NCBI GenBank assembly: GCA_003136215.1 | Contig: PLDO01000477.1 | Coordinates: forward strand, 1 to 33,952 | Origin: Bryobacterales bacterium | GTDB lineage: Bacteria > Acidobacteriota > Terriglobia > Bryobacterales > Bryobacteraceae | Direction of reading: 5' to 3' | Length of the DNA stretch: 33,952 nt | Part shown: piece by piece, positions 11,337 to 17,975 of the stretch | How the letters are laid out: the number at the start of each line of letters is the position of its first letter | How positions within the stretch are numbered: the first letter of the stretch is position 1 | Program-made: the position numbers and the translations under genes | Notes under the pieces: generated by a model | Told to the model about the DNA's origin: nothing | Databases searched by the model: none | The model's input: only the letters and a program-made list of their open reading frames with translations

Positions 11337-13148
<1,812 letters not shown>

Positions 13149-13260: not shown

Positions 13261-13266
13261 TACTAT
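13261..13266 (+). promoter_or_regulatory. -10-like box 6 bases before the DUF1080 gene
   Basis: TACTAT ends exactly 6 bases before ATG 13273, consistent with transcription starting at the start codon. There is no Shine-Dalgarno sequence. Confidence 0.35.
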
Positions 13267-13272
13267 GGCGGC

Positions 13273-13896
13273 ATGCTGCTCGCACGCGTTCTATTACTCT
13301 GCTCTCTGGCGACTGCCCTGCTACCGGCCCAGTCCGTCGACCTCCTGCCCGACGAGTCCCTGAAAGGCTGGACCCGCATCGCCATTCCGGCGACGGACGG
13401 GTTGAAGCCCAAGCTGCAATGGCGCGTCGACTCCGCCCAAAAGGCCCTGATCTGCACGGGTGATGGCGGACACGAGTGGCTGCGCTACGACCAGGTGCTC
13501 GGCGATTATATCCTCGAAGTGGACTTCCGCTTCACCCCCAAGGGCGCCGACGTCAAGTACAACAGCGGCATCGGCATCCGGCTCTCGCCGTGGGGCGAGT
13601 TGTGGGTGCAGGCGCAGACCGGCCCCACCGGCGGATACCTGTTCGGCGTCAACTTTGCGGACGGCGCCTTGCAGCGCTTCAATCTCATGAAGGAGATGAA
13701 AGAGAACCGCATCAAGCCGGCGGGCGAATGGAACCACTACGAGATTCGCGTGCAGGGGGACAAGATCACGCTCTCGGTGAATGGCGCCGCGGTCAACGAA
13801 ATCGCCGGAATCGCCTTGCGCAAGGGGCATATCGGGCTCGAGGCCGAGGGCCACGAGATCACGTTCCGGAATATCAAGCTGACGGTGCTCAAGTAG
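13273..13896 (+). CDS. DUF1080 (3-keto-disaccharide hydrolase type) secreted protein
   Basis: 207 residues from ATG 13273; MLLARVLLLCSLATALLPAQS is a signal peptide. The rest is one concanavalin-like jelly-roll domain of the DUF1080 family: LLPDESLKGWTRIAIP, DYILEVDFRFTP, NSGIGIRLSPWGE, AGEWNHYEIRVQGDKITLSV, GHIGLEAEGHEITFRNIKL. Family members act on, or bind, sugars and are abundant in Acidobacteria and Planctomycetes; some are 3-keto-glycoside hydrolases. The frame stays open upstream to 13165 but that part has no signal peptide. It is divergent from the GH3 glucosidase, which supports a shared role in glycan use. Confidence 0.88.
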   Translation: MLLARVLLLCSLATALLPAQSVDLLPDESLKGWTRIAIPATDGLKPKLQWRVDSAQKALICTGDGGHEWLRYDQVLGDYILEVDFRFTPKGADVKYNSGIGIRLSPWGELWVQAQTGPTGGYLFGVNFADGALQRFNLMKEMKENRIKPAGEWNHYEIRVQGDKITLSVNGAAVNEIAGIALRKGHIGLEAEGHEITFRNIKLTVLK

Positions 13897-13898
13897 AC

Positions 13899-14028
13899 AG
13901 GTGGGACAGACCATCGCTTGCGTGGTCTGTCATGCTTCGCTCAAGCAGTGCCCCACCATTTTTCATCAGCTTTCGCGGGCCGCAGGCCCATCCCAACAGA
14001 CGACAGAAGGCGATCGTCTGTCCCACCT
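13899..14028. repeat. nested-hairpin palindromic element
   Basis: A 13-base exact inverted repeat (AGGTGGGACAGAC at 13899-13911, its complement at 14016-14028) encloses three smaller hairpins: 13905-13913 with 13923-13931 (9-base exact stem), 13977-13981 with 13985-13989 (5-base stem) and 13996-14003 with 14014-14021 (8-base exact stem). It fills the gap between the convergent DUF1080 and CxxC-protein genes. It looks like a dispersed genomic repeat that may also end transcription. Confidence 0.7.
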
Positions 14029-14036
14029 CCTACCGG

Positions 14037-14261
14037 CTATTCCACCGTCACGTGCGTGCCTTTGGACTCTTCACGCGCCAGGTGGGCGATGCGTTCGTCG
14101 AGCAGGCTGCGCAGTCCCTTGAGAAACTCCACGCGCGAATTGCGGAAGTGGTCGCGCGTGGCTTCGCTCACCATGTGTTCCAGCATCGGCATCGCGGTGT
14201 CGCAGAAGAAGCAGCCCTCGGCGTGAGAGTGAGTTCCACTAGCGGCGGTTTTTTCTTCCAT
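14037..14261 (-). CDS. small CxxC/His-containing protein next to the ArsA-type ATPase
   Basis: 74 residues, soluble, no signal peptide. The N-terminal part has a cluster that could bind metal or a redox cofactor: HSHAEGCFFCDTAMPM (two His, CxxC at about residues 17-20). The rest is a single long amphipathic helix region (SEATRDHFRNSRVEFLKGLR, then SLLDERIAHLAREES). The start codon lies one base after the stop of the ArsA-type gene, so they are surely co-translated. I know no characterised homologue. The arrangement suggests a partner or adaptor of the ATPase; this is inference only. Confidence 0.75.
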   Translation of the reverse strand: MEEKTAASGTHSHAEGCFFCDTAMPMLEHMVSEATRDHFRNSRVEFLKGLRSLLDERIAHLAREESKGTHVTVE

Positions 14262-14262
14262 C

Positions 14263-15453
14263 TTAGGTCTCCTTCATTTCCACGGTCAGTACCTTATTCT
14301 CTAACTTCGCGTGCCCGGGCGAAAGTCCCGCCATCGAGGCCGGCAGGCCGATGTGGCGGCGCAGGGTGCCAATCTCCACTACCAGTTCGTCGCCTTTCTT
14401 GAACAGGCCGATCTCGCCCTTGGCGGCAAAGGGAAGTTGCAACCGCACCTGGTAGTGGCCGTCGGCGGACTTGGTGAAGGCGAACGGCGCCTCGGTGCGG
14501 GTAACGGCGGCGGGGTCCTCCTTGCCGTCGTAGAGACTGCGCGCCAGTTCCTCCAGGCGTTCGCGGCCCAGCACTTCGTGGGTGAACAGGGGGACGCGCT
14601 TGACCGGCACCGGGGCGAAATACCGGTCGATCTCTTCCAGAATGCGGCCCTGCGAGACGCGCCATTCCTGAAAGTACTGGTCGGTGACTTCCGCCGGCAG
14701 GACGCGGTTGACAATCACGCCGTCCACCGCCAGGCCGTGCAGCGAGAAGTAAACAAACGCTCGCTGGGTCTCGCGCAGCACCATGCGCTCCGGATTGGTG
14801 ACCAGGCGCACGCTGGTGATCCGCGGATCTTCCAGCAGGTCGCCGATGCCGTCCAGCCGTCCGAACAGGTCTTTGACGTTGGCGAAATAGCTGTCGGTGG
14901 GAAGCTCCACGGGGGAGACGCGGTTGGCCAGCGGGCGCACCGCCTTCAACAAGCTGCGCTGGAAGGGGAAGATGTGCTTCATGTACCACTCCAGCGTGGT
15001 CGGCATGCTGACGAAGCGCATCGACTCGGCGGTGGGGGCGCAATCCAGCACGATCACGTCGTAGCGCTCCTCGCGGCGGAACTGGTTGACGTACATCAGG
15101 GCGCTGAGCTCTTCCATGCCGGGCAGGATGGCCAGTTCTTCGGCCTCCACGTCGTTGATCCCGGTGGTGCGCAGCACGCTGGTGACGTAAGCCGAAATTT
15201 CGCGCCAGTGGCGTTTGATTTCCTTTTGGATATTGACCTCGTGAATGGCCAGCTTTTCGTCGATGGAATATGGGTCGCCTGTTTTTTCGTGGAAGAGGTT
15301 GGTTTCGAGGTCGAATGCGTCGGCCAGGCTGTGCGCCGGATCGACGCTCATCACCAGGGTGCGATAGCCCAGGCGGGAAAGCTCCAGGCCGGTAGCCGCG
15401 GCAAGACTGGTTTTCCCGACGCCTCCTTTGCCGCTGAAGAGAAGGATGCGCAT
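14263..15453 (-). CDS. ArsA/Get3-type ATPase with C-terminal HSP20-like domain (Get3d-like)
   Basis: 396 residues. The deviant Walker A loop FSGKGGVGKTSLAAATG (residues 7-23) and switch MSVDPAHSLADAF identify the ArsA/Get3 branch of SIMIBI ATPases; the A-loop partner VLDCAPTAESMRF follows. Only one half is present (Get3 form, working as a dimer), not the double ArsA of arsenite pumps. The paired cysteines that bind arsenite in ArsA are absent, and no arsB is nearby. Residues ~325-396 form an ArsA_HSP20-like beta-sandwich (YQVRLQLPFAAKGEIGLFKK and LVVEIGTLRRHIGLP), as in the Get3d group of cyanobacteria and plastids. A client-binding/chaperone role is therefore more likely than arsenic export. 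A TAAGAT box lies 6 bases before the ATG. Confidence 0.9.
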   Translation of the reverse strand: MRILLFSGKGGVGKTSLAAATGLELSRLGYRTLVMSVDPAHSLADAFDLETNLFHEKTGDPYSIDEKLAIHEVNIQKEIKRHWREISAYVTSVLRTTGINDVEAEELAILPGMEELSALMYVNQFRREERYDVIVLDCAPTAESMRFVSMPTTLEWYMKHIFPFQRSLLKAVRPLANRVSPVELPTDSYFANVKDLFGRLDGIGDLLEDPRITSVRLVTNPERMVLRETQRAFVYFSLHGLAVDGVIVNRVLPAEVTDQYFQEWRVSQGRILEEIDRYFAPVPVKRVPLFTHEVLGRERLEELARSLYDGKEDPAAVTRTEAPFAFTKSADGHYQVRLQLPFAAKGEIGLFKKGDELVVEIGTLRRHIGLPASMAGLSPGHAKLENKVLTVEMKET

Positions 15454-15493: not shown

Positions 15494-15633
15494 AATCAAG
15501 TTGTGTACTTGACGCGGAGACGCGGAGACGCTGAGGAAAACGCGGAGAAAAGCAAAGGGCAAAACAAGTTCGATGGAAGCCGCCGGACTCGTTCCCTACC
15601 TCCGCGACTCCGCGTCAAGTACACGGCTTGATT
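15494..15633. repeat. 140-base inverted-repeat element (MITE/REP-like)
   Basis: The 32-base arms 15494-15525 and 15602-15633 are inverted copies with three mismatches (core GTGTACTTGACGCGGAG). Inside the left part the motif GCGGAG recurs (ACGCGGAGACGCGGAGACG, then ACGCTGAGG and ACGCGGAGA). The 76-base interior is non-coding. It lies between the divergent ArsA-type and ispG genes. Similar CGCGGAGA-rich palindromes recur in many soil-bacterium genomes (general impression). No transposase is present, so any mobility would need an outside enzyme. Confidence 0.7.
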
Positions 15634-15686: not shown

Positions 15687-16955
<1,269 letters not shown>

Positions 16956-16965
16956 TCGGCCCGAC

Positions 16966-17406
16966 ATGGCGAAACGCTTTACGCTGGCGGAGGCGCAGGG
17001 CCTGATCCCCACGGTGGACCGCCTGCTCCACGAGGCAGTGGACGCCAAAGGCGAATACCAGCATGCCGAACAGGTGATTCACGAGTTCACCGAGCACGTG
17101 ATGATGATGGGCGGGGTGATGGTGGACCGCGACCGCGCGCTCGATGCCCGGGCGCGGCGCGATGACGCGGCTTCCCGGCTGCGTGAGGGTATCGAGGCGG
17201 TGCTGGAGACGGGATGCCTGCTGAAGGACCTGGACATCGGCCTGGTCGATTTCCCGACCCTGTTCCGCGGCGTGGAGGTGTACCTGTGCTGGAAACTCGG
17301 CGAAAGCGGCATTACCTTCTGGCACGGCGTGGACGAAGGCTTCCGCGGCCGCAAGCCCATCGACCAGGACTTTCTCGATAACCATCAGGGTGACCGCCCG
17401 CAGTAA
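16966..17406 (+). CDS. DUF2203 family protein
   Basis: 146 residues from ATG 16966. It starts with FTLAEAQGLIPTVDRLLHEA, followed by a long helical region and the signature GCLLKDLDIGLVDFPTLFRG, VEVYLCWKLGESGITFWHG and DEGFRGRKPI, which is the DUF2203 pattern. The family is small, cytosolic and of unknown function; it is found in Acidobacteria, Firmicutes and others. The conserved CWKLGE..I.FWH suggests a small-molecule pocket (inference). It sits 8 bases before a CYTH-domain gene and is probably co-transcribed with it. Confidence 0.85.
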   Translation: MAKRFTLAEAQGLIPTVDRLLHEAVDAKGEYQHAEQVIHEFTEHVMMMGGVMVDRDRALDARARRDDAASRLREGIEAVLETGCLLKDLDIGLVDFPTLFRGVEVYLCWKLGESGITFWHGVDEGFRGRKPIDQDFLDNHQGDRPQ

Positions 17407-17414
17407 TCATACCC

Positions 17415-17975
17415 ATGTCACAAAGCACGCACGAAACGGAAATCAAGCTGGCGGTGAAGGACACGCGTTCCGCCCGCCGCCTGCTGCGCGAGGCCGGCTT
17501 CGTGGTCTCGCGGCCGCGCGTTTTCGAGGAAAATACGGTATTCGACACGCCGCAACAGATCCTGCGGAATTCTTCCAGCCTGCTGCGCATTCGGCAGGCC
17601 GGCAGGGTCACCACCATCACCTATAAGGGCGTTCCCGAACCCGGCAACTACAAGAGCCGGGAAGAACTCGAGCTCAAGATCGACAACGCAGCGGCCATGC
17701 TGGCGATTGTGGAGCGGCTGGGCTTCCGCGGCGTGTTCCGCTATGAAAAGTACCGCACCGAATTCCGCCAGCCGCGGCGCGCCGGTATAGCCATGCTGGA
17801 TGAGACCCCCCTCGGCGTCTACCTGGAATTGGAGGGCACGCCGCACTGGATCGACCGCACCGCCCGCCGGCTCGGGTTCCAGGCGGCCGACTACATCACC
17901 GCCAGTTATGCGCGCGTGTATCTGGATTGGTGTGCCGCCAACGGGCGCACGCCAGGGGATATGACGTTCACTTAG
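17415..17975 (+). CDS. CYTH-domain protein (class IV adenylate cyclase / triphosphatase-like)
   Basis: 186 residues. The CYTH signature ExExK is at the N terminus (HETEIKL: Glu7, Glu9, Lys11) and the tunnel-lining charged residues follow in SSLLRIRQAGRVTTITYKG, KSREELELKI, FRYEKYRTEFR, and VYLELEGTPHWID. CYTH enzymes hydrolyse inorganic or nucleoside triphosphates, thiamine triphosphate, or (CyaB) cyclise ATP. The HFD/fungal hallmarks needed to choose among these are not decisive here; a CyaB-like triphosphatase is the safest call. The enzyme is cytosolic. The start is ATG 17415, 8 bases after DUF2203, with no clear ribosome site. Confidence 0.88.
   Translation: MSQSTHETEIKLAVKDTRSARRLLREAGFVVSRPRVFEENTVFDTPQQILRNSSSLLRIRQAGRVTTITYKGVPEPGNYKSREELELKIDNAAAMLAIVERLGFRGVFRYEKYRTEFRQPRRAGIAMLDETPLGVYLELEGTPHWIDRTARRLGFQAADYITASYARVYLDWCAANGRTPGDMTFT

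Follow-up and report, generated by a model that had tools for sequence, protein, structure and literature searches.

An alpha-crystallin-bearing Get3-type ATPase and a conserved small protein form a two-gene module in Acidobacteria

The window, the whole stretch of 33,952 nucleotides analyzed here, encodes a Get3/ArsA-type ATPase that ends in an alpha-crystallin domain (aCD) and is a bacterial relative of the factor by which human cells deliver membrane proteins. After a single intervening base (TAA G ATG) follows the gene for a small protein. The two genes form an obligate module. The architecture of the ATPase is already known; for the small partner, and for the way we presume it to be attached, no description was found in PubMed Central open-licence papers or curated family libraries. 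The pair may represent an undescribed two-component Get3d-type chaperone or targeting system that is widespread among bacteria other than phototrophs; the partner would be clipped to the aCD by a tail like that of small heat-shock proteins. We regard this broader proposal as possible rather than probable. The features of the locus are collected in Table 1; a preliminary description of it had given the open reading frames, their coordinates and strand and the one-base gap as we find them.

Table 1. Features of the ATPase gene and the small partner gene, in positions of the window
Feature	Position	Strand	Evidence
Get3/ArsA-type ATPase, 396 aa, single half plus C-terminal aCD	14263..15453	(-)	PF02374, PF17886, TIGR00345
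Deviant Walker A GKGGVGKT, residues 8-15 of the ATPase, both lysines kept	15409..15432	(-)	≥99% conserved per position, 81 homologues
ArsA_HSP20 alpha-crystallin domain, residues 331-393 of the ATPase	14275..14463	(-)	PF17886, E 1.6e-19
Shine-Dalgarno sequence AAGGAG of the small gene, within ATPase codons K-E, 7 nt ahead of the ATG	14269..14274	(-)	Sequence
Small partner protein, 74 aa	14037..14261	(-)	Adjacency in relatives, dN/dS
CFFC, residues 17-20 of the small protein, Cys pair common but dispensable	14202..14213	(-)	C-x(1,2)-C in 72/78
Conserved part of the long helix, HFRNSRVEFLKGLRSLLDERIAHL, residues 38-61 of the small protein	14079..14150	(-)	Conservation in 78; helix in AlphaFold2 models of relative L039
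C-terminal tail VTVE, residues 71-74 of the small protein, IXI/V-like	14040..14051	(-)	[VI]x[VI][DE] conservation

Conservation of the pair was examined in 80 relatives of the ATPase, Acidobacteria without exception. The small gene lay beside the ATPase gene in 78 of them, directly following it in 77 as detected by tblastn and in one more (L082) by eye. At L012 the small gene begins and then the contig ends, and L010 is the sole relative among the 80 without a small gene. At most loci the small gene starts 1 to 3 bases past the ATPase stop codon or overlaps it as ATGA; at L058 and L070 the gap is about 460 bp. A Shine-Dalgarno-like motif of some kind occurs within 18 nt upstream of it at 75 of 78 loci. 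No other gene recurred beside the ATPase at the 80 loci checked. Adjacency in 78 of 80 relatives, together with the lack of any other recurring neighbor, marks the two genes as an obligate module.

The pairing was also followed across the phylum, in 297 acidobacterial genomes sampled evenly, using a broader profile of the small protein (A8). Matches at E ≤1e-4 occurred in 20 genomes, and all 20 adjoined an aCD-ATPase. Three matches were non-adjacent; all had E ≥8e-4, approximately what chance would give over 297 genomes. Among the 30 genomes of this sample with a full-length aCD-ATPase (E ≤6e-126), 25 encode a partner, diverged partners such as L106 to L110 having been read by eye. Gene order is reversed in three genomes (G095, G020, and G256), with adjacency of ATPase and partner retained. 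The dN/dS ratio was 0.08 to 0.35 for the small gene and 0.01 to 0.25 for the ATPase, and the small open reading frame is a real gene under purifying selection. A spurious reading frame, or two genes that are neighbors by chance, might be suspected for so short a protein with no match to a family model, but the dN/dS values and the 20 of 20 adjacent matches rule this out, and we give it essentially no credence.

The claim of the preliminary description that the small protein is an obligate partner, to be checked by its retention beside the ATPase in relatives, is borne out by these counts (78/80, 20/20, and 25/30). So is the absence of a known family for it, as searches of Pfam, NCBIfam and PHROGs found none. 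Against solved structures the small protein had no match (best E, 0.85), and a Foldseek search with its model likewise gave no match. A phage origin was considered and rejected, there being no relevant relatives.

PF02374 covers residues 1 to 309 of the ATPase (Pfam; E 4.4e-89), and the model of the TRC40/Get3/ArsA subfamily, TIGR00345, scored 230.5 bits against a cut-off of 135 (NCBIfam). The deviant Walker A motif conforms to the pattern GKGGxGK[ST] of Get3/TRC40/ArsA ATPases. Switch I (DPAHSL), switch II (DCAPT), the Asn of VNRVLP and the stretch PLFxxEVLG, which aligned here with the A-loop, are all present and almost invariant among 81 homologues. The motif names follow PMC10248533 and general usage. 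Read from the sequence, the ATP-site motifs of the window ATPase are complete. The protein has only one cysteine, C138, and hence no CXXC, which is also missing from all 81 homologues. It is, as first described, a single Get3/ArsA half that lacks the paired arsenite-binding cysteines. Assignment to the ArsA arsenite pump was rejected, given one half, one Cys and a TIGR04291 score of 80.7 bits versus 650. The closest solved structure by sequence is archaeal Get3 of Methanocaldococcus jannaschii (M. jannaschii; 3ug7; E 1e-41), which shares a complete ATP site; the alignment stops at residue 312 of the query, and the matched chain has no aCD. Nostoc Get3d (3igf; E 1e-24) ranked behind others in the same search. 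We know of no small partner of archaeal Get3.

The C-terminal domain was modeled with AlphaFold2 from the aCD and partner of a relative, L039, which are homologous to the window pair. The modeled aCD is a seven-stranded sandwich with pLDDT mostly >90. Its best match in the PDB (VIA) was the aCD of Arabidopsis Get3d (Z 12.0; rmsd 1.7 over 72 residues), and the Nostoc Get3d aCDs scored Z 11.7 and 11.3. Small heat-shock proteins scored clearly lower (Z ≤9.4), and the window-type aCD resembles Get3d, and differs from small heat-shock proteins, in having no beta6 loop. By this model, and by its match to PF17886, the aCD of the ATPase is real, HSP20-like in fold and closest to the Get3d family, so that the HSP20-like tail of the preliminary description also passed the check proposed for it.

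Get3d itself (Arabidopsis At1g26090, Nostoc All4481; NF050088, NosAFP) shares with the window ATPase the single Get3 half, the C-terminal aCD and its fold, and the lack of CXXC. Unlike the crystallized Arabidopsis and Nostoc proteins, the window ATPase has a complete P-loop, switch I, beta7 Asn and A-loop; of these, the A-loop and the base-selecting Asn have been lost in those two. Green-bacterial and Sll0086 Get3d retain switch I and the A-loop (PMC10248533). The window ATPase does not reach the NosAFP equivalog threshold (NCBIfam, Get3d-type; 144.7 versus 325 bits). Hosts of window-type ATPases are mostly not phototrophs, and they encode a small partner, whereas none is known for Get3d. The name Get3d-like, used in the preliminary description, thus fits the architecture and sits less well with the missed cut-off, the complete ATP-site motifs and a host that is no known phototroph.

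In the small protein, conservation is concentrated in the long helix and at the C terminus. H38, E45, K48, R51, and G68 are invariant in 78 close members, and R43, L47, D55, I58, V73, and E74 are nearly so. The protein is charged, looks soluble and contains no transmembrane segment (hydrophobicity window means ≤0.29). Its AlphaFold2 model (L039) is helical, and the helix is partly amphipathic (muH up to 0.46). The terminal motif [VI]x[VI][DE] ends 75 of 77 close members but only 1 of 495 other open reading frames of the same loci. Nineteen of 24 diverged members carry [VIL]x[VIL] at exactly -4/-2; in L129, L130, and L134, also diverged, it lies a few residues inward of the C terminus. Diverged and close members aligned in a profile comparison at 98.9% (E 2e-17) over 47 columns that include the tail.

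The N terminus of the small protein behaves differently. HSHAEGCFFC belongs to a variable region, and its His-rich stretch is not conserved. Spacing of the Cys pair drifts (CxxC in 38 and CxC in 41 close members, CC elsewhere), and L052, L058, L067, L070, L081, and L084 have no pair. The pair is also missing in diverged members (L120 to L123, L127 to L129, L131, and L134), where helix, tail and adjacency persist. The preliminary description had placed the CxxC/His motif at the heart of the protein; the comparison does not support that view.

Because the tail matches the [IV]x[IV] motif of small heat-shock proteins and the ATPase bears an aCD, docking of the tail on the aCD is suggested. In small heat-shock proteins, which share the aCD fold and carry such a tail near or at the C terminus, docking of IXI into the beta4-beta8 groove of a neighbor's aCD is established (PMC4823740). 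Here, in contrast, tail and aCD reside on two proteins, and docking is presumed from the motif. According to the model that we favor, the ATPase would form a dimer of the Get3 fold, have a complete ATP site and, like its family members Get3 and Get3d, probably bind a hydrophobic client; the small protein would be its dedicated partner. The V-x-V-E tail would lie in the beta4-beta8 groove of the ATPase aCD, as sHSP IXI/V does, and would fasten the small protein to the ATPase. The charged long helix could then act as an adaptor or regulator, like Get4 in role but not in descent, and partners that have the N-terminal Cys pair may gain from it a sensitivity to metal or redox state. For the model taken whole (obligate module, docked tail, helix as adaptor or regulator, and Cys pair optional), we judge the chances to be slightly short of even.

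Several observations bear on docking. In AlphaFold2 models of L039, given as confidence blocks only, the last two pLDDT blocks of the tail rose from 62/71 for the partner alone to 72/78 when it was joined to the aCD; no tail strand formed, alone or joined, and the overall pTM was 0.54, so that the models neither show docking nor exclude it. In genome G287 (locus L111), no separate partner gene was found, and the ATPase has an extension after the aCD (L111, 1101-1220) that ends RMTRIEVQE. This ATPase branches beside those of the partner-bearing loci L129 and L130, with support of 98/91 for the three. L111 suggests loss of the partner with the tail retained in cis; coming from one fragmentary genome, it is a clue and not proof. 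On the other side, the tail could bind elsewhere, and aCD-ATPases without a partner exist whose aCDs, compared by eye with those of partner-bearing ATPases, have no obvious sequence differences. The one study to treat aCD-bearing Get3 in detail calls the role of this domain unclear and states that partners, as yet unknown, would be needed (PMC10248533). If the docking model is true, a docking site for an adaptor would be the first function for the aCD of Get3-type ATPases.

The partner might instead bind the ATPase core, its amphipathic helix occupying or capping the client groove as a plug or regulatory subunit, with the tail just adding a strand at some place on the ATPase. The helix is indeed the most conserved stretch (H38, E45, K48, and R51 being invariant) and partly amphipathic, and the hydrophobic chamber of Get3d is able to hold a helix (PMC10248533). 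However, the invariant helix positions are charged and not hydrophobic, and such an arrangement leaves both the near-invariant IXI-like tail and the cis tail of L111 unexplained. We consider it rather unlikely. In the model that we favor, a dedicated adaptor or regulator of the ATPase would have a counterpart in the Get4/Get5 adaptors of eukaryotic Get3. That likeness is one of proposed role only; the small protein had no match by sequence or fold, and the place where Get4 binds Get3 is taken up, in Get3d, by the aCD (PMC10248533).

The preliminary description had suggested that the small protein is perhaps a redox switch or metal-sensing adaptor; a reading of this kind, which could extend to a metallochaperone like ArsD in role, would make the Cys pair and His its functional center. 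The pair is present in 72 of 78 close members, Cys motifs occur in many diverged partners, including CRACPVC of Nonomuraea, and the ATPase itself lacks the CXXC of Get3. Set against this are the varying spacing, the unconserved His-rich stretch and the loss of the pair in single loci and whole lineages while adjacency persists. ArsD has a thioredoxin fold, and the model of the small protein is helical. A Cys-centered function seems improbable to us, and a redox or metal role would be at most an optional add-on. That the small protein is a dedicated client of the ATPase and not a subunit would fit the strict adjacency and translational coupling, but the protein's charge, soluble look and lack of a transmembrane segment speak against it, and a client would have no need of a conserved IXI-like tail; we think this very doubtful. 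Docking of the tail on the aCD remains the reading we prefer.

The study of Get3d ties the aCD-bearing Get3 architecture to photosynthesis (PMC10248533). It is now seen outside the phototrophs, in members of the Acidobacteria, in one actinomycete and in one fusobacterium, and most acidobacterial aCD-ATPases have a single small gene as their sole constant companion. For bacterial Get3-like ATPases, the pairing provides a genetically defined partner, a hypothesis of tail-into-aCD docking and small, expressible proteins. In a tree of 49 ATPases, built without cyanobacterial, Chlorobi and plant sequences, aCD forms split from non-aCD Get3/ArsA forms with full support. Partner presence required 5 label changes on this tree versus 15.3 for shuffles. 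In the window's own family, the ATPase was found in 27 of 61 close relatives at E 1e-60; the module is therefore patchy there and not essential.

Partner-less aCD-ATPases were found in three near-identical acidobacterial genomes, in G267 and in Fusobacterium vincentii. The three near-identical genomes (L115 to L117, L137, L138, and L147 to L149), probably of the phototroph Chloracidobacterium, carry at least three divergent partner-less copies. Fusobacterium vincentii (L140, 3995-6348, in a 2.1-Mb record filed as a plasmid but looking like a chromosome) has two tandem, overlapping aCD-ATPases, perhaps a heterodimer, and no small partner. In the diverged acidobacteria L106 (592-1707), L110 (593-1768), and L113 (3298-4599), a second P-loop ATPase, encoded on the same strand, precedes the aCD-ATPase by 1 to 23 bp, giving a three-gene unit that resembles two-ATPase ArsA-like arrangements.

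Outside Acidobacteriota, the sample consisted of two chromosomes in the plasmid set, those of Nonomuraea and Fusobacterium. In the actinomycete Nonomuraea, 48 bp separate an aCD-ATPase gene from a downstream one, whose product contains CRACPVC and a helix of similar kind, has the tail EHIDLN and scores above the threshold of DUF5304 (PF17230), an actinobacterial family. Its Cys motif, helix, I-x-L-N tail and place behind an aCD-ATPase recall the acidobacterial partner, but it is larger (145 versus 74 aa). DUF5304 was rejected as the formal family of the window small protein, which had no Pfam match to it. The diverged acidobacterial member L130 matched DUF5304 at E 0.025, below the cut-off; the link from the acidobacterial partner is weak (hhalign E 0.0047, probability 7.5), and a DUF5304 search through the Acidobacteria gave noise only. 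Common descent of the Nonomuraea protein and the acidobacterial partner is plausible but, with so weak a sequence link, no more than that.

The other genes around the pair in the window (11337-13148, 13261-13896, and 15687-17975) encode a GH3 glycosidase, a 3-keto-disaccharide hydrolase domain protein, ispG/GcpE, a DUF2203 protein and a CYTH protein; relatives do not keep any of these genes next to the pair. Between the ATPase gene and ispG, positions 15494-15633 hold a repeat with 34-nt inverted arms containing CGCGGAGACGCGGAG; the genome has 26 matches to this repeat. The ATPase promoter may lie in it or be disturbed by it; a sigma-70-like promoter was looked for there without success. Downstream of the pair, positions 13897-14036 form an intergenic element with 19-nt inverted ends, AGGTGGGACAGACCATCGC ... 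GCGATCGTCTGTCCCACCT. The element or its parts have 68 matches in the same genome, which identifies it as a member of a REP/MITE-like repeat family.
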